49,442 nt of DNA from Terriglobia bacterium (GTDB lineage: Bacteria; Acidobacteriota; Terriglobia; Terriglobales; Acidobacteriaceae), in contig JAVUPY010000084.1 in assembly GCA_032252755.1 (NCBI GenBank), forward strand, positions 1 through 49,442, given 5' to 3'. Below, piece by piece: positions 6,079 to 37,900 of the stretch. Every line of letters starts with the position of its first letter. Within the stretch, counting starts at the first letter, position 1. Under the pieces are notes generated by a model. The model was not told the origin of the DNA. It searched no databases and saw only the letters and a list, made by a program, of their open reading frames with translations. The position numbers and the translations under genes were made by a program.

Positions 6079-6196
6079 GTCGAGCTCCGTGGCACCGTAC
6101 GGCGGATCACGTCTCCGTCAGTGGTAAGGCCGCGATGTGCCGCGACGGTTATTGTCGAGCAAGCTCCGCAGGTTTCATGAGCCTGCATTCGGTAAA

Positions 6197-6212
6197 TGCA
6201 ACGAATGTTGCA
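6197..6212. promoter_or_regulatory. Regional operator, copy 1 (TGCAACGAATGTTGCA)
   Basis: Perfect 6-bp arms TGCAAC and GTTGCA around GAAT. It lies 6 bases downstream of the -10 box of the class V aminotransferase promoter, so it overlaps the transcription start, where a repressor would block initiation. Same motif as the sites at 6374, 7935, 11318, 16129 and 23784. Confidence 0.78.
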
Positions 6213-6218
6213 CAACGG

Positions 6219-6247
6219 AATCTATACAGACATCGATGATGTGTCAA
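6219..6247 (-). promoter_or_regulatory. Promoter of the class V aminotransferase
   Basis: Minus-strand TTGACA (6247-6242), 17-base spacer, TAGATT (6224-6219). The spacing is ideal and the operator begins directly at the predicted start of transcription. Confidence 0.7.
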
Positions 6248-6373
6248 GGGTTTCTATGTTGGAGGCAAGAAAATTCGATGTCCTCAGCGATCGTCCCCTA
6301 GCAGCAGTTGACAGCGGTTGCGGAAGTTCGCGCAGTCCGGTAACCTTCAGCGCACATCCTAACGGTTGTAACA

Positions 6374-6389
6374 TCCAACAGTTGTTTCA
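6374..6389. promoter_or_regulatory. Regional operator, copy 2 (TCCAACAGTTGTTTCA)
   Basis: TCCAAC-AGTT-GTTTCA, differing from the best copy at few bases and placed 24 bases upstream of the permease ATG. A TTGACA at 6308-6313 lies upstream, but no -10 at normal spacing is convincing, so the permease promoter itself is not assigned. Confidence 0.6.
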
Positions 6390-6413
6390 CTACGAGACCT
6401 TGAGGGCCTGAAG

Positions 6414-7874
6414 ATGGGATCAGGACGCGGCTATTCGGCAATGGCAGTAAAGCAGAAAGGGAGCCGTCCGGACTTGATCCGAGGGCTGGGTGTTTCCGCT
6501 GCTGCCGCTATTGTCATGGGAACGATGATCGGCACCGGCATCTTTCTCAAACCCAGCGAAATGGCCAACCAGGCTGGCGTGATCGGGATCGTTTTCGCCG
6601 CCTGGATTGTCGGCGGCATCCTGTCGCTCTTCGGCGGCCTTTGCTACGCGGAACTCGGGGCGTCAATTCCTGAAGCTGGTGGGGAATACAGTTACCTACG
6701 CAGAGGCTTCGGCCCGGTCTGGGGATTTCTTTTCGGATGGATGCACTCGGTCGTCGCACGGCCAGCTTCGGTTGCAGCCATTGCAGCAGGACTGGCTCGG
6801 TTTTGTGCGTTCCTGTTTCCCGTCCTGGCAACACCACTCTATGTAATTCATGGCCAGATGCCGTTTCTCAATCAGCCAATTCAGTTCGCATTTACATGGA
6901 TGCAGCCGCTTTCTGTGGTGTCCCTGATTGTGATCTCGTATGTAAACTACCTCGGGATCCGCGCGGGTGGCCGCTTACAGGTGGCGCTCACGATTGTGAA
7001 AGTGCTCTCACTGCTCGTGATCATCGTGGGAGGGCTAATGTTCCTGCACCGCGGTGAGCATATGACCCACGTAGAAATCGGGCGGCTCTGGCCGGCAAAC
7101 CTGGGATGGAAGGAGATTGGGGGCTTCTTCGGTGCTCTGGCGGCCGCTGTATGGGCCTACGACGGCTGGAATGATCTGAACCTCGTCGGCTCCGAGGTTG
7201 AGGATCCGGGACGAACTTTTCCGAGAGTGATCGTGACCGGGATGCTGATGGTCATTGTGTTGTTCCTGCTTTTCAATTACGTGTGTTTTACCGCCCTGCC
7301 GTTCAGCAGTATTCAAACTTCGCGAGATGTAGCTTCGGATGTCTTTTCGAGTTTCGCAGGCAAAGCGGCAGGACTCTGGATCACCGTCATCATGGCTATT
7401 TCCGCGCTGGGCACGCTCAATTCTTCGGCTTTGAGCGGCGCCCGAGTGGACTACGCCATGGCGCGGGACGGCTTGTTTTTCCGGTTCGCAGGCGCCGTGC
7501 ACCCGAAGTATCGATCACCTGGAAACGCCCTCATTTTCCAGTGCTGCATGGCGAGCCTGATGGCTCTTTCCGGGACCTTCGAAGACCTTACATCGCTGGT
7601 GATGTTTGGCAGTTGGATTTTCTACGGCTTTGCGGTTGCAGCCATGATCCGGATGCGAATTACGGAGCCCGACCTGCCGCGGCCTTTCCGTACCTGGGGC
7701 TACCCGCTCGTGCCCGTATTGTTCATTGCGGGGGCGTTTGCCCTTGCGGTGAGTATGTGGCTCAACCGCCCGATTCGTTCTTCGATCGGATTGGTGCTGA
7801 TCCTCTGTGGGCTGTTTTTCTACCGCTCGTGGCGAACGCGCGCAGCGCAGGGTTCGGCAGAGTTCTCTAAGTAG
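6414..7874 (+). CDS. APC-family amino-acid permease
   Basis: Inner-membrane amino-acid transporter of 486 aa with about 12 hydrophobic segments. The hallmark TM1 motif of the APC superfamily, GTMIGTGIFLKPSEMA, is near residue 40, followed by GGILSLFGGLCYAELG and the PEAGGEYSYLRRGFG loop typical of LAT/cationic-type transporters. The ATG at 6414 has GAGG eight bases upstream; an ATG at 6441 (MAVKQK) is an alternative. It is divergent from the class V aminotransferase, with two operators between them, so uptake and transamination are likely co-controlled. Substrate unknown. Confidence 0.92.
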   Translation: MGSGRGYSAMAVKQKGSRPDLIRGLGVSAAAAIVMGTMIGTGIFLKPSEMANQAGVIGIVFAAWIVGGILSLFGGLCYAELGASIPEAGGEYSYLRRGFGPVWGFLFGWMHSVVARPASVAAIAAGLARFCAFLFPVLATPLYVIHGQMPFLNQPIQFAFTWMQPLSVVSLIVISYVNYLGIRAGGRLQVALTIVKVLSLLVIIVGGLMFLHRGEHMTHVEIGRLWPANLGWKEIGGFFGALAAAVWAYDGWNDLNLVGSEVEDPGRTFPRVIVTGMLMVIVLFLLFNYVCFTALPFSSIQTSRDVASDVFSSFAGKAAGLWITVIMAISALGTLNSSALSGARVDYAMARDGLFFRFAGAVHPKYRSPGNALIFQCCMASLMALSGTFEDLTSLVMFGSWIFYGFAVAAMIRMRITEPDLPRPFRTWGYPLVPVLFIAGAFALAVSMWLNRPIRSSIGLVLILCGLFFYRSWRTRAAQGSAEFSK

Positions 7875-7892
7875 AAATCCCAATATGAGCTG

Positions 7893-7922
7893 TTGACAGC
7901 GGTTACGAGAGGGTGGTACCGT
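7893..7922 (+). promoter_or_regulatory. Probable promoter of the aminotransferase-deacylase-regulator unit
   Basis: TTGACA at 7893-7898, 18 bases, then TACCGT at 7917-7922 (weak -10). The -35 block TTGACAGCGGTT also occurs at 6308-6319 upstream of the permease. The operator at 7935 begins 13 bases after the -10. Confidence 0.5.
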
Positions 7923-7934
7923 CCGTCGCGAGCG

Positions 7935-7950
7935 TGAAACATATGTTGCA
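7935..7950. promoter_or_regulatory. Regional operator, copy 3 (TGAAACATATGTTGCA)
   Basis: TGAAAC-ATAT-GTTGCA, identical base for base to the copy at 23784. It lies 45 bases upstream of the aminotransferase start, in the expected leader region. Confidence 0.75.
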
Positions 7951-7995
7951 GTTATGATAAAGTTCGTGAACAGCGCCCAGCCAGGAAGGTGATCC

Positions 7996-9204
7996 ATGAC
8001 CGTTACAGCCACAGCCAAAAAGGTAGCGCTCTCACAGCGAGCGGCGCGACTGGTGCCAACCATGCCTCCCCCAGAACCTGCCGACGTGATTTCGTTGGGT
8101 TCCGGACATGGCTTCCCCGGAGTTTTCCCGGATCTCACAGAGATGGCGACGGTTGCACTGTCGCAGTATCGTCCGGAAACGTTGCAGTACGGGCCGACGC
8201 TGGGCTTACCGGACATGCGGGAATGGATCGCCGGCTATATGAGGGAGAACGGGGTTGAGACCTCGGCCGACAACGTGCTCGTAGTTAACGGCGCAAAGCA
8301 TGGCCTGGATTTGATTTCGCGCCTTTTGCTTGACGAGGGAGATACCGTCATCGTCACCGCGCCCACCTACTTCACTTGTATTCCGATCTTCAAGACATTT
8401 GGTGTGAAGTTCATCGAGGTGTCACAGGACGAGCACGGACTCGTGGTGGACGAACTGGAAGAGACGTTGCAGCGACGCGAACGCGAGGGACTTCCAACTC
8501 CGAAGCTGATCTACAACGTCCCGGATTATCACAACCCGGCAGGCGTTACGATGCCGCGGGATCGGCGCGAAAGATTGGTCAGGATTGCCGAGGCGCATGG
8601 GATGTACGTGGTTGAGGACAGCCCTTATCGCCGGGTGCGATTTGAAGGGGAGCAGGAGCCAATGGTAAAGGCGTTCGACCGCGGCGACACGGTCTTCGTG
8701 CTGGGCACATTTTCGAAATTGGTAGCTCCCGGGATGCGTGTCGGCTGGATTGTCACGTCGCCGGAAATGGTTGCTCGCTTGGCGCAATTGAAATCGGATC
8801 TTGGGTCGTGTCCGCTGACACAACGAATCATCCTCGAATTCTGTCGTGCTGGGCTTCTGGAGAAGCACACGAAGCGGGTCCAGGACACGTATCGCAGGCA
8901 TCGCGACACGATGATTGCGGCATTACGAAAAGAACTGCCCGAGGCATCTTTCGTGGTGCCTCATGGCGGCTACTATCTCTGGCTGACATTGCCGAAACAC
9001 ATTGACGCGGACAAATTGACGGAACGCGCAATGGCCGAGAAGGTGGGAATCATTCCGGGAAGCAAGTTTTACGCCGGCAATGGTCCGAAGGGGCTGGGCG
9101 CCCCGAAAAATAACATTCGGCTCTGCTATAGCCATGCCGATCCCCACGAGATCGAAGAAGCTATCCACAGACTCGCGCGAGCCGTGAGATCCATGAGCGC
9201 CTGA
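7996..9204 (+). CDS. Class I/II PLP-dependent aminotransferase (2-aminoadipate transaminase-like)
   Basis: Cytoplasmic fold-type I aminotransferase of 402 aa. N180 lies in YHNPAGVTM, D208 in VVEDSPYRRVRFEG, and the PLP-lysine is K241 in GTFSKLVAPGMRVGW. The SKLVAPGMRVGW signature and the absence of an N-terminal GntR domain place it with LysN/2-aminoadipate-type transaminases (MocR without the DNA-binding part). GAAGGTGATCC before the ATG provides a ribosome site. First gene of a three-gene unit with a deacylase-like enzyme and the regulator, under the operator at 7935. Amino acceptor and donor are unknown. Confidence 0.92.
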   Translation: MTVTATAKKVALSQRAARLVPTMPPPEPADVISLGSGHGFPGVFPDLTEMATVALSQYRPETLQYGPTLGLPDMREWIAGYMRENGVETSADNVLVVNGAKHGLDLISRLLLDEGDTVIVTAPTYFTCIPIFKTFGVKFIEVSQDEHGLVVDELEETLQRREREGLPTPKLIYNVPDYHNPAGVTMPRDRRERLVRIAEAHGMYVVEDSPYRRVRFEGEQEPMVKAFDRGDTVFVLGTFSKLVAPGMRVGWIVTSPEMVARLAQLKSDLGSCPLTQRIILEFCRAGLLEKHTKRVQDTYRRHRDTMIAALRKELPEASFVVPHGGYYLWLTLPKHIDADKLTERAMAEKVGIIPGSKFYAGNGPKGLGAPKNNIRLCYSHADPHEIEEAIHRLARAVRSMSA

Positions 9205-9238
9205 TAGATGCTCGGAAATAAATGCTGAGGAGGTGGAC

Positions 9239-10267
9239 GTGGCTTCCGTCCTGAGGATCGGTCCCGTTGTAGCGGAGCGAGGCCAGGTTGCGCGAGGATT
9301 TCTGCCGGTTGGCGAGACGATTACCGGGCCGGTTCAGTTGCCGGTCATCGTCATCCATGGTGCGGAGCGAGGGCCGGTACTTTGCCTCACCGCCGGGGTG
9401 CACGCGACGGAGTACGCTTCGATCGACGCAGTGATGCGGCTCATCAACGAGCTGCGGCCCGAGTCATTGCGGGGCTCGGTGGTTGCGGTGCCGATTGTGA
9501 ACATGCACATGTTCAGCTCCCGTTCACCGTTTGTTTCACCTCTGGATGGCGTCAACCTGAACAAGATAGCTCCCGGCGGCAAGGGCTCGATCTCCGAAAT
9601 GCTCGCGCAGAGCCTTTTCGAAGAAGTGATCACAAAATCGGAATACCACATCGATCTTCATGCCGGCGACTTTGGCGAGATGTTGCTGGAATTCGCCGGA
9701 TATAGTCTGACTGGAAACGGCGAATTGGATCGAAAAGGAGAAGCCCTGGCTCGAGTGTTCACTCCCCGGGTGTTCTGCCTGGCGCCGAAGGGTAGCACTC
9801 TGCCACCCTCGCCCGGCTTCGTGGCCAACGCAGCGGCAAATAAGGGAATTGTTTCCATCCTCGCGGAAGCTGGCGGAAACGGAACTCTGGAAGAGCTCGA
9901 TGTTCAGATTCACGTCCGGGGAGTTCGCAACGTACTTCGGTTTCTCAAGATGATGGATGGCGACCCGGAAATTCCGGGCCCGCAAGTGCAGGCGACCGAC
10001 TGGCACAACACCAGAACTAGTTGTTCGGGACTGATGCATTTGAAAGTTTCTGTAGGCGACGAGGTACGGGCGGGACAGGAGATAGCCGAAATACGGGACG
10101 TATTTGGTCAAACTGTCGAGACGGTTCGAGCCGCAAAGGGCGGCCTGGTAATGCTGGCTTGGGCTCATAAGGCGGTCAAATCGGGGGATCCGGTGGTTCG
10201 GTGCTGGTCCACAAGACCGGCGTTGCCATTCGCGGAGACGGACCGTTTCATCTCTCGTGCTAGGTGA
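9239..10267 (+). CDS. Succinylglutamate desuccinylase/aspartoacylase-family zinc hydrolase
   Basis: M14-like zinc amidohydrolase of 342 aa that would remove an acyl group from an N-acyl amino acid or a related amide. Zinc ligands are H55 and E58 in GVHATE and H141 in IDLHAG; E210 in LAEAGGNG is the likely general base. The C-terminal ~90 residues form the β-barrel appendage (SGLMHLKVSVGDEV, AGQEIAEIRD). I start it at the GTG at 9239, which has GAGGAGG five bases upstream, rather than at the GTG at 9233 inside that site. It lies between the aminotransferase and the RpiR gene, overlapping the latter by 4 bases. The acyl group is unknown. Confidence 0.9.
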   Translation: MASVLRIGPVVAERGQVARGFLPVGETITGPVQLPVIVIHGAERGPVLCLTAGVHATEYASIDAVMRLINELRPESLRGSVVAVPIVNMHMFSSRSPFVSPLDGVNLNKIAPGGKGSISEMLAQSLFEEVITKSEYHIDLHAGDFGEMLLEFAGYSLTGNGELDRKGEALARVFTPRVFCLAPKGSTLPPSPGFVANAAANKGIVSILAEAGGNGTLEELDVQIHVRGVRNVLRFLKMMDGDPEIPGPQVQATDWHNTRTSCSGLMHLKVSVGDEVRAGQEIAEIRDVFGQTVETVRAAKGGLVMLAWAHKAVKSGDPVVRCWSTRPALPFAETDRFISRAR

Positions 10268-11211
10268 AAAAGGTATGTAGCGATACAATTTCGCTTTCCG
10301 AAAGGTCCTCTGTGACAGTGCACGTAGATCGCAATACTCTTCCCAATGGTACATGGGCGCTTCTGCGGAACCTCACACCGCGAAGGCGCGAAATCATCCG
10401 ACCGGTTCTGGAGAGTCCCAGTACATATGTTCTGCTCGGGCTTCGCGGTGTTTCACGAAAGCTGAAAAGTGACCCGGCAACCGTATTGCGCACGGTGCAG
10501 GCCATGGGGTTCAAGCGCTACCGCGACTTCCAGCAGTACCTTCACGAGTACACGATTGCATTCAGCACCTCGCTCGAAGCTCTCGAGAAGGGATCAGAGC
10601 GCGCCAAGGGGACGGAAGGACTGATCCAGGCCTCAATCAAGCGGGACATGGACAACTTGAAGCAACTGCAGAACACGCTAGATCCGGGCCGGGTAATTGC
10701 GGTCGCCCAAAAGGTTTATGAGGCCAGGAGAATTCTCCTGATTGGCGGCGACATGGTAACCGCCCTCGTCACCTACCTGGACTACAACCTTGCGATGTTG
10801 GGGTTGAACGTAGTGCGTGCGGTATTGCCGGGAGAAATCAATCACCGGGTTCGCACAATCGGCAAGCAGGATGTGGTGATCGGGATCTCCTTCGGGCGCG
10901 GATTGCGACAGACGGTCGAAGGTTTGAAAGAAGCGCGAGAGAACGGCGCCTATTGCGTGGCCGTGAGCGATACATTCATCTCACCTGTCGCAAAACACGC
11001 GGACCAGTTTTTTCTCACGCCAACGGAAAAGCTCTCATTCGCAGATTCCTACGTTGCCTGCATGGCGCTGTTCAATGTACTGCTGATTGCATGCGCAAAC
11101 GTGGAACGTCGTAGCACGATGGCCCTGCTGAAGAAGGTCGCACAGGAGCAGCGGTCGGGATATCGCTGGTATTTCGAGGAGCCTCACACGCCGTCGCACA
11201 ACAACGACTAA
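10264..11211 (+). CDS. RpiR-type (MurR/RpiR) transcriptional regulator, candidate regulator of the region
   Basis: DNA-binding regulator of 315 aa with an N-terminal RpiR helix-turn-helix (GVSRKLKSDPATVLRTVQAM, residues ~60-85) and a C-terminal SIS domain (~140-265). The first SIS loop reads ILLIGGDMVTALV and the second VVIGISFGRGLRQTVE, departing from the usual GxGxS and SxSGxT phosphate loops, so its ligand may not be a sugar phosphate. The GTG at 10264 overlaps the preceding stop (GTGA). A GTG at 10312 with AAAGG upstream is an alternative start. It is the only regulator within the 6-31 kb core and is the best candidate to bind the repeated operator. Confidence 0.9.
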   Translation: MKKVCSDTISLSERSSVTVHVDRNTLPNGTWALLRNLTPRRREIIRPVLESPSTYVLLGLRGVSRKLKSDPATVLRTVQAMGFKRYRDFQQYLHEYTIAFSTSLEALEKGSERAKGTEGLIQASIKRDMDNLKQLQNTLDPGRVIAVAQKVYEARRILLIGGDMVTALVTYLDYNLAMLGLNVVRAVLPGEINHRVRTIGKQDVVIGISFGRGLRQTVEGLKEARENGAYCVAVSDTFISPVAKHADQFFLTPTEKLSFADSYVACMALFNVLLIACANVERRSTMALLKKVAQEQRSGYRWYFEEPHTPSHNND

Positions 11212-11228
11212 GATGTGTGCAGGCTTTT

Positions 11229-11244
11229 CGAAGCAGATGTTTCA
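11229..11244. promoter_or_regulatory. Weak copy of the regional operator
   Basis: CGAAGC-AGAT-GTTTCA: one good arm and a 4-of-6 left arm compared with TGAAAC. It lies upstream of the -35 box of the first esterase promoter, as an auxiliary site would. Could be chance. Confidence 0.35.
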
Positions 11245-11271
11245 AGGAAAATCAACCCAGCCTTCTCTGCC

Positions 11272-11300
11272 TTGACATGATCTCGTTGGGGTTATACTCT
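11272..11300 (+). promoter_or_regulatory. Promoter of the esterase 1 / M16 unit
   Basis: TTGACA at 11272-11277, 17 bases, TACTCT at 11295-11300. An overlapping TATACT at 11293-11298 is closer to consensus but leaves a 15-base spacer. TACTCT also follows a TTGACA at the TonB receptor promoter (16102). Confidence 0.65.
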
Positions 11301-11317
11301 GCCACGGTCCCCCTGAA

Positions 11318-11333
11318 AGCAACAATTGTTTCA
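11318..11333. promoter_or_regulatory. Regional operator, copy 4 (AGCAACAATTGTTTCA)
   Basis: AGCAAC-AATT-GTTTCA with the same AATT centre as the best copy at 16129. It starts 18 bases after the -10 and lies 45 bases before the esterase ATG. Confidence 0.75.
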
Positions 11334-11377
11334 TTTGCCGGAAACCTAGGGCCGGGGGGACTGGGAGAGAAACAGAG

Positions 11378-13057
11378 ATGGCTTTCGCCCGACTTCGTTC
11401 TGCAGTGCTACCCACAATTGTTGGCTATCTTTTCCTGTGCGCGGCGGCGATGGCCCAGGGGCCGCGGTTCGAAGTCTCATTCCCGGCATCGTTACAGGCA
11501 CAACCGATTACGGGCCGCTTGATTGTCGTTCTTGCAAGAAGAGACAGCCCTGAGCCCCGGTTGACCATCTCGGAGCTTGGCCCGCCAATTTATGGAATTG
11601 ACGTGGATCAGTTGCAGCCCGGAAGTCCGGCGGTTGTAGATTCACGAGCCTTGGGCTTCCCCTTGAAAATGTCAGAACTGCCTGCGGGAGATTACTACGC
11701 GCAGGCGGTCATGAATGTTTACACCGAGTGCCATCGCACGGACGGGCACAGCGTGTGGGTTTACATGAATGACGGGCTTGGAATGCACCTGCTGAATACC
11801 GCACCGGGGAATCTTTACAGCGAACCCGTGAAGGTGCACGTCGATCCGGCAGCACCTTCGACAGTCAAGCTTGAACTCTCGAAGGTGATTCCGCCCGACC
11901 CGGAACCGCAGGACACGGCGTGGTTGAAGCACGTGAAGATCAAGAGCGAGTTGCTCACCAGGTTCTGGGGCCACCCGGTATTCATAGGGGCGACGGTTTT
12001 GTTGCCTAAAGGATACGACGAGCATCCGCACGCTCATTATCCGGTCGTATATGTGCATGAGCACGGCATTCCATTTCAATTCACGACGGACGCGAGCCAT
12101 GAAGAGCAGGAGAAGCGAGGAGCACGCGCCGCGAATGTAGAGACCGGTTACGAGTTCTACCAGTCGTGGGACTCGGATAAATTCCCAAGGTTCATCGCGG
12201 TGACCTTTCACCAGCCGACGCCATTTTTCCCCTCCTCCTATTCAATCAACTCTGCAAATGATGGCCCGTACGGAGATGCGCTGACGAAGGAGATGATTCC
12301 GTACCTGCAACAGCACTTCCGAATCATCGATCAACCGTATGCACGGCTGGTGGAAGGCGCTTCGACCGGTGGATGGGAGACGCTTGCATTACAACTCCAT
12401 TATCCCGATTTCTTTGGTGGAGCATGGGTCTTCAATCCCGATCCCATCGATTTTCAGAACTGGCAGCTGATCAATATCTACAAGGATGACAATGCGTTCG
12501 AAGTTCCGGGCTTCCCGGAGTTTCATTCGTCCGAGCGTCCGTTCCGTCGCTCGACTGAAGGGCAGGTTATCTACACGCAAAGAAAGATGAGCCTCTTCGA
12601 AGCGGTCATGGGATCGCACGGCCGATCAGGAGATCAGATAGACGCGTGGGAGGCAATCTACGGACCGGTCGGTCAGGATGGTTATCCCGTTCCGCTGTGG
12701 GATCCGCTCACTGGAAAGATCGATCACAACGTTGCGCTCTACATGCGGGATCACGGTTACGACCTGCGGTACTACGCGGCGGCAAACTGGCCGACGCTGG
12801 GTCCGAAGATCGTGGGCAAGCTGCATTTCTTCTCCGGCGACATGGATAACTTCTATCTGAACCTGGCGGTCTACCGTTTCCAGGAATTTCTGGAAGGCAC
12901 AAAAGACCCGCATTACGAGGGTGAATTTTCGTTTGGCCGTCCACTGAAAGGCCACAACTGGCACAGGACGACGTGGGCTGAACTGGTGCGCGAGATGGCG
13001 GATTACGTTCGCAAGAACACGCCAGCCGGGCAGAACGTCGCAGAGTGGAATTACTGA
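11378..13057 (+). CDS. Secreted α/β-hydrolase esterase-like protein, copy 1
   Basis: Exported protein of 559 aa with a signal peptide ending near AAAMAQG. An N-terminal β-rich region (~25-200) precedes an esterase-D-like α/β-hydrolase domain. The nucleophile Ser is in the elbow VEGASTGGWETLALQ; candidate Asp and His lie in FFSGDMDNFYLN and PLKGHNWH. Reaction likely: hydrolysis of an ester or acyl bond in the periplasm. It has a full-length paralogue at 27025 with the same layout. Heads a unit with the two M16 peptidases 18 bases downstream, under the operator at 11318. No substrate can be read from sequence. Confidence 0.85.
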   Translation: MAFARLRSAVLPTIVGYLFLCAAAMAQGPRFEVSFPASLQAQPITGRLIVVLARRDSPEPRLTISELGPPIYGIDVDQLQPGSPAVVDSRALGFPLKMSELPAGDYYAQAVMNVYTECHRTDGHSVWVYMNDGLGMHLLNTAPGNLYSEPVKVHVDPAAPSTVKLELSKVIPPDPEPQDTAWLKHVKIKSELLTRFWGHPVFIGATVLLPKGYDEHPHAHYPVVYVHEHGIPFQFTTDASHEEQEKRGARAANVETGYEFYQSWDSDKFPRFIAVTFHQPTPFFPSSYSINSANDGPYGDALTKEMIPYLQQHFRIIDQPYARLVEGASTGGWETLALQLHYPDFFGGAWVFNPDPIDFQNWQLINIYKDDNAFEVPGFPEFHSSERPFRRSTEGQVIYTQRKMSLFEAVMGSHGRSGDQIDAWEAIYGPVGQDGYPVPLWDPLTGKIDHNVALYMRDHGYDLRYYAAANWPTLGPKIVGKLHFFSGDMDNFYLNLAVYRFQEFLEGTKDPHYEGEFSFGRPLKGHNWHRTTWAELVREMADYVRKNTPAGQNVAEWNY

Positions 13058-13075
13058 GAATTAAGGACGGGGATC

Positions 13076-14479: not shown

Positions 14480-14483
14480 GGAT

Positions 14484-15887: not shown

Positions 15888-16010
15888 AGCAAAGGCTGTA
15901 GTTCCTGATGGCCGGCGGAACGATAGGTTCGGGGTGCGACCTGGACCCGGTAAAGCCGTCTGCCCGCAATAGGGGGCGTTGCCACCCCGCAATTGAAAGT
16001 CTGCCATGGG

Positions 16011-16026
16011 TGAAACGTTTGTTGTT
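16011..16026. promoter_or_regulatory. Upstream copy of the regional operator (TGAAACGTTTGTTGTT)
   Basis: TGAAAC-GTTT-GTTGTT: intact left arm, right arm 4 of 6. It lies about 50 bases upstream of the TonB receptor -35 box and 118 bases from the main site, so two dimers could cooperate by looping. Confidence 0.45.
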
Positions 16027-16077
16027 ATCTTTTGCGTGTTGGGATATCTCGCTAAGGCAGGCCCATCTATTTAGCTA

Positions 16078-16107
16078 TTGACAGGAGTGAAACATACGCA
16101 GTACTCT
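16078..16107 (+). promoter_or_regulatory. Promoter of the TonB receptor unit
   Basis: TTGACA at 16078-16083, 18 bases, TACTCT at 16102-16107. The operator at 16129 lies just downstream. The TTG of this -35 box also opens an in-frame extension of the receptor ORF, which should not be taken as the protein start. Confidence 0.62.
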
Positions 16108-16128
16108 TTCGCCATTTTAGAACCAGAA

Positions 16129-16144
16129 TGCAACAATTGTTGCA
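16129..16144. promoter_or_regulatory. Regional operator, copy 5, best match (TGCAACAATTGTTGCA)
   Basis: A 16-bp perfect palindrome, the most symmetric copy in the window. It starts 22 bases after the -10 and lies 62 bases before the receptor ATG. I used it to define the motif. Confidence 0.8.
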
Positions 16145-16206
16145 TTACCCGGACAACGAAAACGAAAGACGCCGGCCGGCGACGCAGGCATGAACAGGAG
16201 ATCGCA

Positions 16207-19200
16207 ATGTTGAAATCGTGGCGCTTGATCCTCGGTGCCCTTTGGGTCGTACTAGCAATCGTCTCGCAGGGGACAGCACAGAACGCAGCGACAGGCGCCA
16301 TTGCCGGGACCGTGACCGACGCGTCCGGAGCGTCCGTGGTCGGGGCGCAAGTGAAGGTGACGAACGAAGCCACCGGTGAGGTGCGCAGGGTGACCTCGCG
16401 TTCCGACGGCTCGATTCTTATAAGCCTCCTGCCGCCTGGTGGCTATTCAATTATCGTCACCGCTCCTGGCTTCAAAACTGTCGACGTCAGCAAGGTCACC
16501 GTAACGGTGACAGAAACGGTCAATGTTCCGGTCCGCCTCGAAGTCGGTGCCACGAACGAGTCGGTGACTGTCACGGGATCGGAACTGCAGGTGAACACCG
16601 AATCCGCGGAGTTGGGTACGGTGACGTCCCGTCAAATGATCCAGAGCCTACCGTTGGTCACTCGGAACTATACACAGATCATTGCGCTCAATCCCGGCAT
16701 CTCAGCTGAGGTATCAAACGCCGGCGAACTGGGCAAGGGCAGTTCTTCTTATGGTGCTTCAACTGGCGGCTTCTCAGCCCAAGGTGGTAATACTAACGAC
16801 AACAATTTTCAAATGAACGGCGTCACTGTCAGCGACACGTTTGCAAGTGCACAGTTCAGCGGTGGAATAGCGGTCCCAAATCCTGACACTTTGCAGGAAT
16901 TCAAGGTTCTAACCGGGCAGTATGACGCCTCGTACGGCCGTAATGCCGGCGCGAATGTCAACGTTATTACTCGAGGCGGCACGAATGATTTCCATGGGTC
17001 GGTGTTTGAGTACTTTCGGAACGACGCCCTCAATGCGAATGAGTTTTTTCAGAAGCGGAATAATCAGCCGCGGCCGGTGTTAAGGAGCAATCAATTCGGG
17101 TTCACCTTCGGTGGGCCGCTCAAAAAGAATAAGCTCTTGTTTTTCGGTTCGTACCAGGGCACACGGCAGCGCAACGGAATGGCGGCTGGCTGTCTCAGCC
17201 GCGTGGAACTTCCGCCACTTACCAATGACCGCAGCGCCGCGGCCCTTGGGGCAATATTCGGCGGCAATGTCGGATATTTTAACTATGCGCTTGGGGTTAC
17301 AGCAGGCGTTCCGACCATAGCTGTCGACGGTTCCAATATCAACCCGGTCGCACTGAAACTCTTGCAGGCCAAGCTTCCGAATGGCCAGTATCTGATCCCA
17401 ACTCCCCAGTCGGTTCAGGCTTATACACCGTCAGCCGATCCTTCCGTGATTGATAGCGTGGGGACTTCGACGTTCAGTTCTCCCTGTCCGTACACTGAAG
17501 ACCAGTACATGGGCAATTTGGACTACTTGCAGTCGGACAAGAGCAAGTGGTCGGGCCGCACATTTGTCGCAAACAGCCAAGCGACGCAATCGCTGGCCGC
17601 AGGAGTTCCCGGATTCGGTGTCATCACTCCTGCCGACTACCGCAACATCAGTTTGGCCAACAGCTATGTCTTCAGTCCAGCACTTCTGAATCAACTGACC
17701 ATTGGTTTCACCCGGCAGCTGGCCGGACAGATTCAGGCGAATCCGTACAAATTCTCGGATTTCGGCATTACAGGGCTGACCGATGGGCCGCCCGTGATCT
17801 ATCTAAATGCGCTTACCACCGGTTTGAATATTGGCGGAAAAGGTCAAACGCAAACCGCCGCTCAAAATACCTATGAGGTTACTGATTCGATCTCCTGGAT
17901 TCACGGGAAGCACAGCTTCCGTTTTGGTGGCGGCGTTACCCGTTGGCAATACAATGCTTCCAACCTCCAATACTCTGGTGTGATGGAGTTCCTAACGTTC
18001 AGCGACCTTCTGCTCGGAAACGACGCCAATACGGCGGGATTGGGCGCTTACGGATATGGCAACCTTTATGGTTCCATCGCTCTGATAGGTGATTTGGCCC
18101 GTGATTATCGCATTTGGGAGAATAACGCTTGGGTTCAAGATGACGTGAGGATCACCAAACGGCTGACTCTGAATCTGGGCTTTCGCTACGAACGGCTCGG
18201 TGGAATGAGCGAGAAATGGGGCAGGAATACGTCTTTCGATTTCGCTCTGGCGGATCCGACTCCTCCCGCAACGGGGACGCTCGCAGGGTATTTGGTTCCC
18301 TCGAACTTCCGCAGCACGATACCCGACGGAGTTACAAAATCCGGCAATAACATGGGTATCGCCGGCGACGGCCAGAACACCTGGAATCCTCGCTTCGGCT
18401 TCGCTTGGCAGTTGCCCGGAACCGATCGACTGGTACTACGCGGCGGTTATGGAATGTTCCACAGCCGTACTACCGGCGTGGGGCTAATTCAATCCCTGAG
18501 CGCGCCGCCGCTTTCGTACATCGTGAATGACGTAGGGGCGGCCAATGCCGCAGCGACGGCTGCCAACCCATACGTCAGCCCGCTGCCCACATTGCCGTAC
18601 TTCCCGCTGATTACCCCGACCTCAGCCCAAACTCCGCAGGTTCTGTCGCAAAGTTATCGCCCCCCCACCTACCAGCGCTACAGCCTCGGGTTACAGGCGG
18701 CGCTTGCAAAAGATACCGTCCTCGAGGTCGACTATGTTGGAGCGCGCGACACGCAACTAATACGGCAGCGAAATATCGATCAGGCACAACTAGCCAGTCC
18801 GGACAATCCAATTCGTGGCGTGACCACCAATACCTCGGCCACCTCTAACATTCGTGCGCGCCTGCCTTACCAGGGATTATCCCCGACGGGAGCGCGCATT
18901 TATGAGAATGGGGCTGCCGGCTGGTACAACTCGCTACAGGTCAGCGCCAACAAGCGCATGAGCCACGGGCTGACGCTCCAAGGGTCCTATACGTTTGCCC
19001 GCGCGCTCAGCGACTCACCGGGGAGCATTTCGGCCACAATCGGCGGGCGTCCGAACGGTAACACCAACGATCCCAGGTCCACCTACGGCCCAGATCCGTT
19101 CGTGCGTGAGCATCGTTTCGTTCTCAGCTACCTGTACAATCTGCCCGGTCCGAAAGACGTGAATTCCTTCGCTGGACGGATTTTAGGTAACTGGTCACTT

Positions 19201-19674
19201 TCTGGAGTTACCGTGGCGCAGTCTGGGCACCGCCTTACTTTCGGCTATACCAACGCTGCGAACGTATTCGGCATCAACAGCGACCGTCCAGATTACGTTC
19301 CCGGCTGCAACATCAATACCTCCGGAGGGGTCGAAAGCCGGCTGAACGCGTACTGGAACCCGGCATGTTTCACCAAACCTGCAGCGCTTGCGGCTCCCAA
19401 CTCGGGAACGCTTTTCGGAACCAGTCCTATTGGCCTTGGACACGGACCTGACCAGGTCAACTTCGACATCTCAATCGCCAAGCAGATCCCAATCAAATGG
19501 CCGAACGAGGTTTCCCGTCTGGAGTTCTACACACAGTTCTTTAACGCGCTCAACCACCCCCAGTTTGCCGATCCAAGTACCCAGTTCACGGGGACTGGTT
19601 TTGGAGCAAACGCGATCACATCGACAGTTACGAACCCCAGGATTATTCAATTCGCACTGAAGTACAGTTTCTAA
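16207..19674 (+). CDS. Oar-like TonB-dependent receptor 1 with carboxypeptidase-regulatory domain
   Basis: Outer-membrane receptor of 1155 aa. The start is the ATG at 16207, preceded by AGGAG and followed by a signal peptide (MLKSWRLILG to QGTAQ). A CarboxypepD_reg-like β-sandwich comes first (GAIAGTVTDASGASVVGAQV), then a plug region (SLPLVTRNYTQIIALNPG) and a long β-barrel ending FALKYSF, with the terminal Phe typical of outer-membrane proteins. It probably imports large peptides or their fragments for the surrounding peptidases. No SusD gene is present, as usual in Acidobacteriota. A strong stem-loop follows before the S41 peptidase gene. Confidence 0.93.
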   Translation: MLKSWRLILGALWVVLAIVSQGTAQNAATGAIAGTVTDASGASVVGAQVKVTNEATGEVRRVTSRSDGSILISLLPPGGYSIIVTAPGFKTVDVSKVTVTVTETVNVPVRLEVGATNESVTVTGSELQVNTESAELGTVTSRQMIQSLPLVTRNYTQIIALNPGISAEVSNAGELGKGSSSYGASTGGFSAQGGNTNDNNFQMNGVTVSDTFASAQFSGGIAVPNPDTLQEFKVLTGQYDASYGRNAGANVNVITRGGTNDFHGSVFEYFRNDALNANEFFQKRNNQPRPVLRSNQFGFTFGGPLKKNKLLFFGSYQGTRQRNGMAAGCLSRVELPPLTNDRSAAALGAIFGGNVGYFNYALGVTAGVPTIAVDGSNINPVALKLLQAKLPNGQYLIPTPQSVQAYTPSADPSVIDSVGTSTFSSPCPYTEDQYMGNLDYLQSDKSKWSGRTFVANSQATQSLAAGVPGFGVITPADYRNISLANSYVFSPALLNQLTIGFTRQLAGQIQANPYKFSDFGITGLTDGPPVIYLNALTTGLNIGGKGQTQTAAQNTYEVTDSISWIHGKHSFRFGGGVTRWQYNASNLQYSGVMEFLTFSDLLLGNDANTAGLGAYGYGNLYGSIALIGDLARDYRIWENNAWVQDDVRITKRLTLNLGFRYERLGGMSEKWGRNTSFDFALADPTPPATGTLAGYLVPSNFRSTIPDGVTKSGNNMGIAGDGQNTWNPRFGFAWQLPGTDRLVLRGGYGMFHSRTTGVGLIQSLSAPPLSYIVNDVGAANAAATAANPYVSPLPTLPYFPLITPTSAQTPQVLSQSYRPPTYQRYSLGLQAALAKDTVLEVDYVGARDTQLIRQRNIDQAQLASPDNPIRGVTTNTSATSNIRARLPYQGLSPTGARIYENGAAGWYNSLQVSANKRMSHGLTLQGSYTFARALSDSPGSISATIGGRPNGNTNDPRSTYGPDPFVREHRFVLSYLYNLPGPKDVNSFAGRILGNWSLSGVTVAQSGHRLTFGYTNAANVFGINSDRPDYVPGCNINTSGGVESRLNAYWNPACFTKPAALAAPNSGTLFGTSPIGLGHGPDQVNFDISIAKQIPIKWPNEVSRLEFYTQFFNALNHPQFADPSTQFTGTGFGANAITSTVTNPRIIQFALKYSF

Positions 19675-19700
19675 CTCATTGCCACTCATCCCCTCAAGCA

Positions 19701-19743
19701 GAGTATTCGCCTGGCAACCGCATCTGGCGCCAGGCGAATACTC
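19701..19743 (+). terminator. Intercistronic stem-loop after TonB receptor 1
   Basis: Perfect 15-bp arms, GAGTATTCGCCTGGC at 19701-19715 and its complement at 19729-19743, with a 13-base loop. No T-tract follows, and the ribosome site of the S41 gene begins a few bases later. It is better read as an mRNA-stabilising or partial-attenuation element than as a full terminator. Confidence 0.7.
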
Positions 19744-19755
19744 AACGGAGAAATC

Positions 19756-21420
19756 GTGATCCCGAGTTCTCGTGCTTTGCTTCTGCAGGTAGTCATCGCT
19801 CTTTTTGTATGTCCTTTGTTTGCCCAAGCTCCTGAACATCTCACCCATGATCAAGCCTTTCAGGATGCTCGCGAATTCGTTCATCTGCTTGAGACGGCGC
19901 ATCCGGATCCGTATTCAAACCTCGGCGGCAAGGTTGCGTTCGAACGCAAGGCCGAAGACCTTTACAAGGCAATTCCCGCGGAGGGGCTGGATGTTCCCGG
20001 TCTCCGCGATCGACTGGCGGCTTTCATCGCGCCCCTGCATGATGGGCATACGCGAGTCGGCGGGCGAAGCGACAAGTGGAGCGATGATTCTCCCAAACTC
20101 ACAGTTGAGTTTCAGATCGCGTCCGATGGGCTACTGATTTCGGCATCCGATCTGCCGGAGTTGAAAGGTCTGCGCGGTTCCCGGTTACTTGCCGTGAATG
20201 GCATCACCGTTGACCAATTGCTCGAGCGGATGTCGCAGCAGGTGGCGACGGAAAACCAGTATGGGACGTACGTCGGACTCACGATCGTTTTGCGAAGTTC
20301 CAAGCTGCTGAGCAATCTGATTCCCGGCCTCGACCGTGCGTCGGGTGTCACCTATACCCTGCAAACGCCGGCTGGGCAGCGGATCGAGCGCAAGATCAGT
20401 TGGGGTGGAACGCATCCAGAGGACTCTCAGAAGTGGGTCGACCAGTCCTTGTACTGGCCGGGTCTAAAGCGATCCGAAGATCCTTTTTATTACCGCTTCC
20501 TTCCAGATGGCAAAACGGCTTATTTCCGCGTCGCCAACATGATGCCGCGCGAGGGTTATGAGATTGTCGAGAAATACCATGTCGGCAATCTCAAGGAGTT
20601 TCTCGCGGAGTACTACAAGCGACATAACCGGCCGATGCCCGCGGACACGGCCGCGGCACTGGCCGGGATTCCTTCACTTTTTGAGCAGGGAACGAACCTG
20701 CTGAACGAAATGAAGCGCAGGAACACGCCTAACCTGATCGTGGATTTGCGAGGAAATGGCGGCGGTTCGACGCCAACGTTTATTCCATTTATCTACCAGC
20801 TGTTCGGTGATACCTACTTCGCTCGCGCTACCGGTGCGCAGTTCGTGCAGGTCAAGTCTGAACTCTATCTCCAGAAGTACAACTCCACCGTGGCCGAAGA
20901 ACGTAAGAAGGATCCAAATTTTGAAGTGGGCGAGTACGAGTTCACCTCGAGCTACGAGGGCAAGACAACCGAGGAGAAGAGGATCAAGCGGATCTCAGAT
21001 TTCAGCGAACATCACATGTCGTTTGCCCCGGCGCTGGAAGCGATGAACGGCAAGCCGCTCTATACGCCGAAAAGACTGGTGGTTCTCTGCGATCCGGGCG
21101 TGTTCAGCGCGGCGTTCCAGGCGATGTTCTATCTGCACGATGTCGGGGCGGTGGTTGTAGGGGTGCCGTCAGCGCAATCGCCCAACGCGTTTATGGAAGC
21201 GACACCCTTCACGCTCACGATTTCGAAGATACCCGGTTCAATTTCGAATGGCATGCAGATGTTCATGCCTGACAATCCGAGGGCGAACATCTTTCACCCG
21301 GACTTTGAAGTCACGTATTCCACTTATAAAAAGTATGGTTTCGACGATGAGACTGCGTTGCGTTATGCGGTGGATTTGCTAGCGGCGGGAAAGATCGCGA
21401 CGCCGGCAAAGACTGAATGA
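19756..21420 (+). CDS. S41-family serine peptidase, exported
   Basis: Exported C-terminal-processing-like (S41) peptidase of 554 aa. It starts at a GTG with GGAG six bases upstream and has a signal peptide ending in PLFAQA. A helical N-terminal domain (EFVHLLETAHPDPYSNLG) and a DGHTRVGG segment are followed by a degraded PDZ-like part (GSRLLAVNGITVDQLL) and the S41 core: LIVDLRGNGGGSTP, then LVVLCDPGVFSAAFQAM, where the Ser is the probable nucleophile. It likely cleaves imported peptides in the periplasm. It overlaps or abuts the next gene and belongs to the TonB receptor unit. Confidence 0.88.
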   Translation: MIPSSRALLLQVVIALFVCPLFAQAPEHLTHDQAFQDAREFVHLLETAHPDPYSNLGGKVAFERKAEDLYKAIPAEGLDVPGLRDRLAAFIAPLHDGHTRVGGRSDKWSDDSPKLTVEFQIASDGLLISASDLPELKGLRGSRLLAVNGITVDQLLERMSQQVATENQYGTYVGLTIVLRSSKLLSNLIPGLDRASGVTYTLQTPAGQRIERKISWGGTHPEDSQKWVDQSLYWPGLKRSEDPFYYRFLPDGKTAYFRVANMMPREGYEIVEKYHVGNLKEFLAEYYKRHNRPMPADTAAALAGIPSLFEQGTNLLNEMKRRNTPNLIVDLRGNGGGSTPTFIPFIYQLFGDTYFARATGAQFVQVKSELYLQKYNSTVAEERKKDPNFEVGEYEFTSSYEGKTTEEKRIKRISDFSEHHMSFAPALEAMNGKPLYTPKRLVVLCDPGVFSAAFQAMFYLHDVGAVVVGVPSAQSPNAFMEATPFTLTISKIPGSISNGMQMFMPDNPRANIFHPDFEVTYSTYKKYGFDDETALRYAVDLLAAGKIATPAKTE

Positions 21421-21446
21421 TCGAAGAGATCTATTGGGAGGAAATT

Positions 21447-22202
21447 GTGGAAGAGAAATTACGCAGAGAATTACGTTGGTTGAAGGCCTATGCATTCCTT
21501 TCGATGTTGTTGTTCGCGGTGTTGATTTTTGTAGCCGCAGCCGGACCCGAGAAAACGAAGTTCGATCAGATTGAAGTTCACCGGATCAATGTTGTGGAAC
21601 CCGACGGTACTCTGCGGATGACGATTTCGAACAACGCCGAGTCGCCGGGACCCGTGTTGGGCGGTCTGTATATGAAAAAGCGCGAGGGCACACGCGGAGC
21701 CGGCATGATCTTCTTCAACGACCAGGGCGACGAGTGCGGGGGGATGACCTGGAGCGGCAAGAAGAAGGACGGCAAAATTGCCGCCGATGGCGGCCTCATG
21801 TTCGACCAGTTCGATCAGGATCAGACCGTGGGGATCAACTACACGCAGCACGGCGACCAGCGCGCCGCCGGTTTGCACGTGTGGAACCGGTCGCTGACAC
21901 CAATCGGAGACTTTGCGCGCCAAGTGAATACCGTGGAAGAAATGAAGGACGGTCCTCAGAAGACCGAGGCTTTGAAGAAGATTCGCGAACAGGCAATTGC
22001 AACCGGGATGGCGGGCCAGGAGCGAGTATTCGTCGGACGGATGGGAAACAACGACGCGGTGGTCAGCCTGAAAGATACAAATGGGAAGCCGCGCATTTTG
22101 CTTTCTGTGGACGCCCAGAACCAGCCTAAAATCCAGATGCTCGACGAGAACGGGAAGGTGGTCTACAGCTTGCCCGCGCAGGAGGCGGCGCCTCATCAAT
22201 AA
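21447..22202 (+). CDS. Membrane-anchored protein of unknown family, copy 1
   Basis: Not recognised. I choose the GTG at 21447 because GGGAGG lies five bases upstream; an ATG at 21417 overlapping the S41 stop (ATGA) is the alternative. The protein has a short cytoplasmic start, one membrane segment (AYAFLSMLLFAVLIFVAAAG) and a ~220-residue outside domain. The signature RINVVEPDGTLRM is followed by glycine-rich β-repeats (GAGMIFFNDQGDECGGMTW) and a final LSVDAQNQPKIQMLDENGKV block. A clear paralogue at 30066 shares this layout and also follows an amidohydrolase gene in its unit, suggesting an accessory to the peptidases or amidohydrolases. Confidence 0.8.
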   Translation: MEEKLRRELRWLKAYAFLSMLLFAVLIFVAAAGPEKTKFDQIEVHRINVVEPDGTLRMTISNNAESPGPVLGGLYMKKREGTRGAGMIFFNDQGDECGGMTWSGKKKDGKIAADGGLMFDQFDQDQTVGINYTQHGDQRAAGLHVWNRSLTPIGDFARQVNTVEEMKDGPQKTEALKKIREQAIATGMAGQERVFVGRMGNNDAVVSLKDTNGKPRILLSVDAQNQPKIQMLDENGKVVYSLPAQEAAPHQ

Positions 22203-22324
22203 CCGAGTAGAATGACGGAACCGCATCGATCATGGCGCAAGATCGCTTATGCGCATCGGCGGAACGAATCCCCGGATTCCGAGACTGTATTTCCGGGGTT
22301 CGACTAACCGCAAGGAGAATACTT

Positions 22325-23662
22325 GTGCGCAAGCTGCGTGTGTTCGGTTTTCTGCTGTTATTTTCCTCGTTGACATTTGGTCAGAGCGTGCCGACGCCTG
22401 CGCCCCTGCCTTCGAGCGCCGGCGCTGTGTATCTCATTAAGGCCGGTCTGCTGATCGACCCTGAAACCGGCACCGCCACGCCCAACCAGATGATCGCGGT
22501 GAACGGCGGTCGCATTGTTGCCATAGGCGCAAACATCGCCACACCCGCCGGAGCGGAGGTCATCGATCTCTCTGGTTACTCGGTACTGCCGGGCTTGGTG
22601 GATGCTCACACGCATCTCGCGACGACTACAGTTCCCGAAGACAACCACAATCTCTATTTCACCTATATTCACGACTCCACACCGTTACGTGCCATCCAGG
22701 CGGCTTCGAACGGCATGCAGATGCTCGATGCAGGTTTCACCGTGGTGCGCGACATGGGAAACAACGGCAATTACGCCGATACAGCATTACGCGTTGCGAT
22801 CGAGCAGGGGTGGATTCCTGGTCCAACCGTCGTCAACGCCGGACTCTTGATAGCCCCGATGGGCGGTCAATTCAATCCGACACCGGAGATGGCGATGCAG
22901 CACACAATCGTCTATCCCGAGTACCTCGAGGCCGACACTCCCGACGAGATCATCAAGGCGGTGCACCAGAACATCCTTTTCGGCGCGAAGCTGATCAAGG
23001 TGTGTGTCGATTGTAAGCCTTATGGCTATAGCGTTCAGGACCTGAAGCTATTCGTAAGCGAGGCAGCGCGTGCCGGATTGAAGGTTGCCGGTCACGTGCA
23101 GACGCATGCGGGCGCCTTGCGCGCCATTGAAGCCGGTCTCTGGTCGATCGAGCATGATTACGCGTTGACCGACGATGTGCAGAAACTGATGGCGCAGAAA
23201 GGGATCTGGCGTGTCGGCACCGAGGAGCCTGTCAGTTCCTACAGCGGCTCGCAGGCCGCGCTCGACAAGACAATTGCCGGGATCAAACAGGCGTACGCGG
23301 ACGGCGTGAAGATGGCATTCAGCACCGATATTGCCTCGTATATTCCCGGCTTAACTCGGGGCCAGCGCGCCATCGGCTACATCAGTACGTGGGAGAAGAG
23401 TGGGCTTCTCAGCAATGAAATTCTGAAGATCATGACCGTGAATGGATACAAGGTCTGTGACATTTACGACAAACGTGGACCGATTCGCGTCGGCTTTCCG
23501 GCGGATATGATCGCCGTAAAGGGGGATCCGCTGGAGAACATCGACGTCCTGCGGAACGTGAGCTTCGTAATGAAGGACGGTCTGGTATTCAAGCGTGCCG
23601 GCATCATGATGCCGGCAAAATTCTTTCATGGTGGCCCGGTGAACGGGTGGAACATTCACTGA
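22325..23662 (+). CDS. Secreted amidohydrolase (imidazolonepropionase/Xaa-Pro dipeptidase-like), copy 1
   Basis: Metal-dependent amidohydrolase of ~445 aa. I start it at the GTG at 22325, with AAGGAG upstream and a signal peptide (MRKLRVFGFLLLFSSLTFG); the longer frame to 22232 gives no signal sequence. Metal site: HxH in DAHTHL, bridging Lys in GAKLIKVCVDC, His in KVAGHVQTHAG and SIEHDY, and Asp in AFSTDIASY. Members of this subgroup hydrolyse Xaa-Pro, Xaa-Arg/Lys dipeptides or cyclic imides. A periplasmic dipeptidase role would fit the neighbouring S41 and M16 enzymes. A paralogue is at 28728. Confidence 0.88.
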   Translation: MRKLRVFGFLLLFSSLTFGQSVPTPAPLPSSAGAVYLIKAGLLIDPETGTATPNQMIAVNGGRIVAIGANIATPAGAEVIDLSGYSVLPGLVDAHTHLATTTVPEDNHNLYFTYIHDSTPLRAIQAASNGMQMLDAGFTVVRDMGNNGNYADTALRVAIEQGWIPGPTVVNAGLLIAPMGGQFNPTPEMAMQHTIVYPEYLEADTPDEIIKAVHQNILFGAKLIKVCVDCKPYGYSVQDLKLFVSEAARAGLKVAGHVQTHAGALRAIEAGLWSIEHDYALTDDVQKLMAQKGIWRVGTEEPVSSYSGSQAALDKTIAGIKQAYADGVKMAFSTDIASYIPGLTRGQRAIGYISTWEKSGLLSNEILKIMTVNGYKVCDIYDKRGPIRVGFPADMIAVKGDPLENIDVLRNVSFVMKDGLVFKRAGIMMPAKFFHGGPVNGWNIH

Positions 23663-23686
23663 CCGCCCACTCTCGTCGTCCCTGAT

Positions 23687-23702
23687 GGAATCAAATGTTG
23701 CA
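23687..23702. promoter_or_regulatory. Weak copy of the regional operator
   Basis: GGAATC-AAAT-GTTGCA: perfect right arm, left arm 4 of 6. It lies 97 bases upstream of the full site at 23784, a pairing like that at the TonB receptor (118 bases). Confidence 0.4.
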
Positions 23703-23737
23703 TTTCTTGAAGATAGATGGCAGAAGATAGCGTCGTC

Positions 23738-23766
23738 TTGACACCTGCGGCCTCAGGGCGTAAGCT
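23738..23766 (+). promoter_or_regulatory. Putative promoter of the Asp-box/esterase 2 unit
   Basis: TTGACA at 23738-23743, 17 bases, TAAGCT at 23761-23766. The operator at 23784 begins 18 bases after the -10, as at 11318. It lies inside the open frame of the following gene, which argues for a later start codon there. Confidence 0.5.
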
Positions 23767-23783
23767 CCCGCTACTCTCAATTG

Positions 23784-23799
23784 TGAAACATATGTTGCA
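23784..23799. promoter_or_regulatory. Regional operator, copy 6 (TGAAACATATGTTGCA)
   Basis: Identical in all 16 bases to the copy at 7935. It contains an in-frame ATG (23792) of the Asp-box gene, so the site may overlap the start codon. Confidence 0.72.
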
Positions 23800-30050: not shown

Positions 30051-30065
30051 TCACCAGGAGACGCT

Positions 30066-37870: not shown

Positions 37871-37900
37871 GTTGCATGCCTCAGCAAGGAAAACTTCATT

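Follow-up and report, generated by a model that had tools for sequence, protein, structure and literature searches.

Operators and genes in the window

A 49,442-nucleotide stretch of DNA from a Terriglobia bacterium (contig JAVUPY010000084.1), hereafter called the window, carries a cluster of genes for uptake and breakdown of peptides, the units of which are headed by copies of one palindrome, TGMAAC-N4-GTTKCA. The cluster also includes, at 10264, the gene for an RpiR-type regulator, which very probably uses this palindrome as its operator. Exact copies were located at 6197, 7935, 16129 and 23784, and copies with one mismatch at 6374 and 11318. The number of copies with up to one mismatch, six, compares with 0.46 expected, and none of 100 dinucleotide shuffles reached six, in support of the sequence-only reading, which had placed one palindrome at the head of at least six transcription units; all of its site coordinates and letters were correct. 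With up to two mismatches, 15 copies were found in the window (shuffle mean 6.26, largest 12), and those lying within coding sequence (5876, 8456, 9523, 28787 and others) are consistent with chance. A matrix was seeded with the six window sites and then re-estimated on the loci of relatives. The window matches at 15 bits or more were exactly nine, the six strong operators and the three weaker copies at 11229, 16011 and 23687 that had been named in the same reading (matrix scores 17.5, 15.3 and 20.1). The threshold of 11 used for re-estimation lets chance matches in (143 against a column-permuted mean of 42 and maximum of 85); the conclusions below are based on thresholds above 11 or on the matrix made from the window alone.

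Operator O1 (TGCAACGAATGTTGCA, 6197-6212, exact match) stands before the gene for a class V pyridoxal-phosphate (PLP) enzyme on the minus strand, O2 (TCCAACAGTTGTTTCA, 6374-6389, one mismatch, score 18.9) before the gene for an amino acid permease, and O3 (TGAAACATATGTTGCA, 7935-7950, exact match, score 23.5) before the aminotransferase-deacylase-regulator unit. The remaining three are the proximal members of pairs: O4 (AGCAACAATTGTTTCA, 11318-11333, score 24.6), before the esterase-M16-M16 unit, has its distal, upstream partner at 11229-11244 with a spacing of 89 bp; O5 (16129-16144, score 25.2), the perfect palindrome TGCAACAATTGTTGCA before the TonB receptor unit, has its partner at 16011-16026 (118 bp); and O6 (TGAAACATATGTTGCA, 23784-23799, score 24.9), which by eye overlaps an in-frame ATG (23792) of the Asp-box gene, has its partner at 23687-23702 (97 bp). 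Each of the three pairs encloses a perfect TTGACA.

The operators at 6197 (on the minus strand, with TAGATT as -10), 6374, 7935, 11318, 16129 and 23784 are preceded by a perfect TTGACA at distances of 35, 66, 42, 46, 51 and 46 bases, respectively, and the strong operators are therefore situated at or shortly after the expected transcription start. For the TTGACA before the 6374 operator no acceptable -10 was found at 16-19 bp. A stricter promoter scan of 4700-24500 gave fewer promoter-like sites than shuffled sequences (3 against a mean of 9.4). Concerning the TTGACA-type promoters proposed earlier from the letters, then, the hexamer is perfect before all six operators, but the stricter scan retained only the promoter at 6247.

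Counted from the open reading frame (ORF) list and the protein families, the regulon consists of 16 genes in six units, close to the single regulon of about 15 genes that had been proposed; co-transcription within each run of genes is an assumption. The first unit, on the minus strand, is the gene for the class V aminotransferase or desulfurase-like PLP enzyme (4864-6078, Pfam Aminotran_5). All others are on the plus strand: the APC-type amino acid permease (6414-7874, Pfam AA_permease_2); the unit of a class I/II aminotransferase (7996-9204, by Pfam; closest solved relatives 1x0m and 3aov), an AstE/AspA-type deacylase, distantly DoeB-like (9233-10267, by Pfam, with an NCBIfam match below the cut-off) and the regulator (10264-11211); the unit of an esterase-type hydrolase (11378-13057, Pfam Esterase) and two M16-family peptidases (13076-15887, by Pfam); the TonB-dependent receptor with CarboxypepD_reg, Plug and OMP_b-brl_4 domains (16207-19674, by Pfam; by eye its start is more likely ATG 16207, a correction), followed in the same run by an S41 peptidase, an unknown 261-residue protein and an Xaa-Pro-dipeptidase-like amidohydrolase (19756-23662, by Pfam); and the unit of an Asp-box/VPS10-type protein, a second esterase, a second Xaa-Pro-dipeptidase-like amidohydrolase and an unknown 241-residue protein (23792-30791, by Pfam). 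For both amidohydrolases the top NCBIfam match is an Xaa-Pro dipeptidase model (XaaProDiPepCaul for the first), below its cut-off. The two esterases (11378-13057 and 27025-28728) are paralogues, 54% identical, in separate units of one regulon.

The regulator and its ligand loop

The product of the gene at 10264 is an RpiR-type regulator, with a helix-turn-helix (HTH) domain followed by a SIS domain. The match to Pfam SIS reached 58.7 bits (cut-off 25), while that to HTH_6 had an E-value of 4.5e-4 and stayed under the gathering score (20.6 against 28.3 bits). The AlphaFold model of the monomer has a mean predicted local distance difference test score of 87.6, and its best fold matches are the NanR-DNA structure (9dqn), VvNanR, RccR (8k3b) and 3sho, with MurR lower. 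In Foldseek, both domains align to 9dqn and 8k3b, the root-mean-square deviation being as large as 8-20 because the domain orientation differs; the SIS domain against 3sho gave a template modelling score of 0.93 by target length. The regulator also has a palindromic operator near its own gene, which is the last of the unit behind O3.

The phosphate loop of the NanR and MurR structures reads SSSGST, SLSGST or SYSGSK, as read by eye from the aligned loops of 4ivn, MurR and NanR. The corresponding motif SxSGx[TSK] was found in 0 of 79 homologues of the window regulator, an RxLR motif taking its place within the consensus SFRRGLRQT. Asp163, Arg212 and Leu214 are conserved in 79/79 and Arg215 in 78/79. 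A similar loop, WRYLRDT, is present in 3sho, the closest SIS domain of known structure. The effectors of the four structurally studied RpiR proteins are phosphorylated carbohydrates, according to PMC12713135. Because the SIS phosphate loop is absent from the homologues, the inducer here is probably a peptide or an amino acid, for which Asp and Arg would make a suitable pocket.

Recurrence of the operator beside regulator homologues

Homologues of the regulator were detected in 41 of the 298 genomes of the order, its own included; a scan for named relatives returned none with a single-protein query and 80 loci with an alignment query. Stretches of up to 20 kb around the homologues were fetched (55 in total). 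Of these, 41 belong to clade I and 12 to clade II and were used, whereas L079 (a regulator fragment) and L080 (from the own genome, matching only in part) entered neither set. In the 41 clade I loci, the window-derived half-site TGMAAC ranked first of 360 permuted half-sites, matching 34 times where the mean was 4.4. Although 92% of the sequence is taken up by crude ORF calls, 16 of these matches lie outside them and 18 inside. With the matrix made from the window alone, a site of at least 11 bits was found in the flanks of the regulator gene at 27/41 loci (mean of 3.1 and maximum of 22 for 500 column-permuted matrices), and within the regulator gene, a somewhat shorter stretch, at 3/41. The strict core GMAACAWWTGTTKC occurs 17 times across 35 genomes with a clade I regulator against 4 for reversed-pattern controls, while the 257 genomes lacking the regulator contain 48 sites (in 39 genomes) against 52 controls, without any excess. 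The group of 35 excludes the own genome, four genomes with clade II only and one genome with the fragment.

Two other genes of the cluster were followed in relatives. The deacylase has no homologue above 38% identity in the 298 genomes, and of the 19 deacylase loci of relatives (L204-L222) only L207 reached the level of 15 bits, with a match of 15.2. Esterase homologues are present in 134/298 genomes, the own included; among 19 esterase loci of relatives (L224-L242), the operator was found at one only, the locus beside an RpiR gene. The locus L149 is on a contig publicly labelled Betaproteobacteria; both its regulator and its operator fall within an Acidobacteriota group on the tree, and it is probably a mislabelled bin.

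Covariation of operator and recognition helix

A total of 104 distinct regulators were aligned and classified by the five residues that open the recognition-helix region, SDPAT in the window regulator. An operator was counted as present when the flanks searched around the regulator contained it with no more than one mismatch. The regulators of xxPAT type are accompanied by TGMAAC in 38/68 cases and by TGTYAC in 3/68 (two carry both). Next to the TDTAT regulators, TGTYAC was found in 7/7 and TGMAAC in 0/7, a count from which the clade II row L073 (VNTAT), with neither operator, was left out; next to the DAMT regulators, TGTYAC was found in 2/3. On the maximum-likelihood tree, TDTAT and DAMT each form one well-supported clade and lie apart, TDTAT joining 14 P-type rows (97/87), so that a joint change of helix and operator seems to have taken place about two times. 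The covariation holds for these two clades and not for one residue.

This clade-level covariation provides the best evidence that the regulator itself would read the palindrome. The proposal that the 10264 product is the operator reader, made earlier from the letters of the window, gains support from the recurrence of the operator next to homologues, from its background level where the regulator is absent, and from the altered operator next to altered helices.

The paralogous RpiR clade II (L067-L078, about 31-35% identical) is associated with a related, asymmetric, half-altered operator such as TGCAACAAATGGTGTA, and its two VDKAT members with TGCACC...GGTGT. Clade II was initially taken as a negative control and was dropped from that role, the related operator being present at 7/12 loci at 13 bits or more; it serves instead as a second example.

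Genes linked to the operator in relatives

At 76 sites in relatives, 137 crude flanking ORFs include 45 TonB receptors and 38 RpiR genes; 15 unlabelled ORFs form one group and are probably miscalled, and three further ORFs match the permease. Ten other target ORFs that were scanned comprise M15 D-Ala-D-Ala dipeptidases, hydrolases of Beta-lactamase fold, an MR_MLE enzyme, amidohydrolases, S9 and S15 peptidases, a Rieske oxygenase and one without match. Proteins encoded near the sites were then compared with those encoded far from them. The near set (116 of 179 proteins within 4 kb of sites, chosen by distance, those above 900 residues being excluded) contains MR_MLE 8, M15 8, Beta-lactamase 7, Amidohydro_3 6, Amidohydro_1 5, amino acid permease 4 and S13 3. 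The far set (116 of 124 proteins more than 6.5 kb away, chosen at random) contains, among the 25 top families listed, Response_reg 4, Aminotran_3 3, MR_MLE 3, YceI 3, amino acid permease 2 and Beta-lactamase 1, and is shorter, with 38,401 against 47,975 residues. The first M15 protein shares 53-60% identity with seven others in the near set, indicating that the M15 group is largely one related group.

Judging from the predicted families, peptide scavenging is the common theme of the operator-linked genes, one group of relatives having putative enzymes for D-amino-acid (cell-wall) peptides; the murein-peptide idea depends on the unequal near and far counts. Taken further, this Acidobacteriota branch of RpiR may have switched from sugar-phosphate to peptide or amino-acid sensing, perhaps of cell-wall D-amino-acid dipeptides, by way of Asp163 and Arg212/Arg215, and may control scavenging of cell-wall peptides and protein through promoter-bracketing loops, a proposal that we put forward tentatively and rate at somewhat under even.

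Paired operators and the proposed mode of regulation

The spacings of partner sites around 76 non-redundant sites of relatives peak at 105-125 bp: at 13 bits, 18/53 partner observations fall there, each reciprocal pair entering the count two times, while column-permuted matrices gave a mean of 0.28. Among 28 non-redundant pairs spaced by 60-150 bp, three of them from the window, 13 are spaced by 105-111 bp. A perfect TTGACA is present between the sites in 16/28 pairs (300 shuffles gave 1.15 on average and never more than 6), at 39-61 bp from the proximal site, and all three window pairs belong to these 16. The weaker copies, which the sequence-only reading had simply recorded, are thus partners in promoter-bracketing pairs; the RpiR type of the regulator with its altered ligand loop and the peptide-scavenging nature of the genes are likewise new with respect to that reading. 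Operators on both sides of a promoter are the layout of looping repressors. RpiR proteins are reported to form tetramers in their crystal structures, and a looping model exists for NanR (PMC12713135). Strong and weaker copies often occur as partners, in most cases at a distance of 89-142 bp, on either side of a TTGACA promoter, which suggests repression by a DNA loop.

The computed observations concern the sites themselves, the reappearance of these next to regulator homologues, the parallel change of operator and helix in two clades and the bracketing of promoters. From them we infer a scheme in which binding, repression, looping and induction would be connected as follows. The strong copy, which closely follows a sigma-70-type promoter, would be bound by a dimer of the regulator. 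Where another copy is present about 90-140 bp upstream, as at several promoters, a tetramer would hold both sites and loop out the promoter, keeping the genes for peptide uptake and breakdown off. A peptide or amino acid derived from the imported substrate would bind the SIS domain and make the regulator release the DNA, after which the six units (16 genes) would be expressed, including the TonB receptor, peptidases and other hydrolases, the permease, the PLP enzymes, the deacylase and the regulator itself. Repression is proposed because of the position of the operators relative to the promoters. We consider this whole mechanism, loop and repression included, to be modestly favoured.

A number of observations weigh against the scheme. 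The strict-core site was found in only 12/35 genomes with a clade I regulator, and no locus examined in relatives carries the same gene cluster. Of the xxPAT regulators, 29/68 have neither type of operator; these include a whole clade of seven (L054, L081, L082, L083, L093, L100 and L145), with some of the closest homologues by identity. TGMAAC is kept in 4/5 of the regulators without proline (TDAAT, SDAAT and TAAAT), and TGTYAC was found in 0/4 clade II VDTAT rows, so that no single residue explains the switch, and a one-residue code (proline to threonine) was not upheld. As for the pairs, 12/28 lack a perfect TTGACA; with up to one mismatch, TTGACA between paired sites shows no excess (21 against a shuffled mean of 15.6 and maximum of 22); the window spacings of 89, 97 and 118 fall outside the peak at 105-111 bp; and helical phasing is unconvincing, with p of about 0.003 for all pairs, which are non-independent, and about 0.09 for unique spacings. 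In the whole 5.39 Mb own genome, the loose pattern with up to one mismatch gave 59 sites against 64 for the reversed control, without excess. The refined pattern TGMAACRWWTGTTKCA (centre RWWT), at 0-1 mismatch, has a single match outside the window, an exact one (C70:130275, the same as L003:1501-1516) between GvpL/GvpF gas-vesicle and GAF-GGDEF genes.

A genome-wide regulon was rejected on these two counts. The refined sites are otherwise all within the window and almost confined to the cluster, indicating a local regulon; in the own-genome scan suggested earlier, the loose pattern was at background and the refined one picked out this cluster. A weaker site (C24:191312, score 20.0), located downstream of a GH3-type ORF and about 470 bases upstream of a response-regulator ORF, was not counted.

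By eye, the divergent promoter regions of L081 (10780-10870) and L082 (10420-10560), two loci of the clade of seven, carry GTGA...TCAC palindromes instead of the operator.

The best-placed alternative keeps the same regulator and operator without any loop: each copy would act as a road block past its promoter, and the distal copies would only raise the local concentration of the protein. In its favour, no scored partner lies 60-150 bp away from the operators at 6197, 6374 and 7935, which are nevertheless similarly placed after TTGACA, and the distal copies of the window have the lower scores. Both the peak of partner spacings and the perfect TTGACA inside 16 of the 28 pairs argue for looping instead, and we regard road blocks alone as unlikely.

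Secondly, the regulator could be an activator like pneumococcal NanR, ligand binding switching the units on. NanR, of the same family, is an activator that has been proposed to loop DNA, with sites about 55 bp upstream of the -35 box (PMC12713135). The weaker distal sites of the window do lie upstream, but the strong ones are downstream of the -10, the position of a repressor, and activation appears improbable.

Thirdly, the palindrome might be read by another regulator encoded elsewhere in the genome, the RpiR gene being merely one of its targets. The clade of seven regulators with no adjoining operator could be explained in this way. However, an altered operator is found next to two regulator clades with altered helices, and the excess of sites is observed only where the regulator is present; we give this reading little credence. 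Chance or compositional palindromes, which would agree with the lack of genome-wide excess of the loose pattern, are contradicted by the local excess and position of the sites in the window and by their recurrence in relatives, and are hardly worth considering.

Other loci in the window

A separate uptake locus at 36815-45808 contains a LacI regulator, a protein with an FGE-sulfatase domain, a second OMP_b-brl_4 receptor, a ureide-permease-like transporter and a PfkB kinase; the palindrome was not found there at 15 bits or more. The window also encodes a RES-domain protein (261-992) and a HipA-type protein (47147-48394), families known from toxin-antitoxin pairs.

Comparison with known systems

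Neither a reconstructed regulon of this kind for Acidobacteriota nor a description of this operator was found in the open-access literature searched. The present results assign to one scavenging system of Acidobacteriota its regulator and operator, the arrangement of its promoters and the genes under control, all directly testable, and the matched variants of operator and helix would offer a start on reading the code of the RpiR family. If the SIS domain indeed senses peptides or amino acids, this would be a departure from the four RpiR proteins with structural studies (PMC12713135).

Within the RpiR/MurR family, the regulator resembles NanR of Streptococcus pneumoniae and Vibrio vulnificus, MurR of E. 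coli, and RccR and HexR of Pseudomonas in its N-terminal HTH, its C-terminal SIS fold and its short palindromic operator. The operators of the known members are TGTAGT/ACTACA for RccR and TTGT-N7-8-ACAA for HexR (PMC5489143), and TCTGAAAGTACTTTTAGA for NanR (PMC12713135). In contrast, the operator here is TGMAAC-AWWT-GTTKCA, the SxSGx[TSK] loop is missing in 79/79 and replaced by RxLR, and the linked genes are for peptide uptake and breakdown.

The looping repressors GalR and LacI have operators on both sides of the promoter. The present system is similar in having two promoter-bracketing operators with spacing of this order, but the protein belongs to an unrelated family and the loop is a predicted one.

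In E. coli, murein peptides are recycled by a set of genes including that for the L-Ala-D/L-Glu epimerase and its regulator PgrR. The neighbours of the operator in relatives include comparable proteins, namely MR_MLE enzymes, M15 D-Ala-D-Ala dipeptidases and S13 carboxypeptidases. In contrast to the E. coli system, the regulator here is of another family, the receptors are TonB-dependent, and the window itself carries Xaa-Pro-type and other peptidases.

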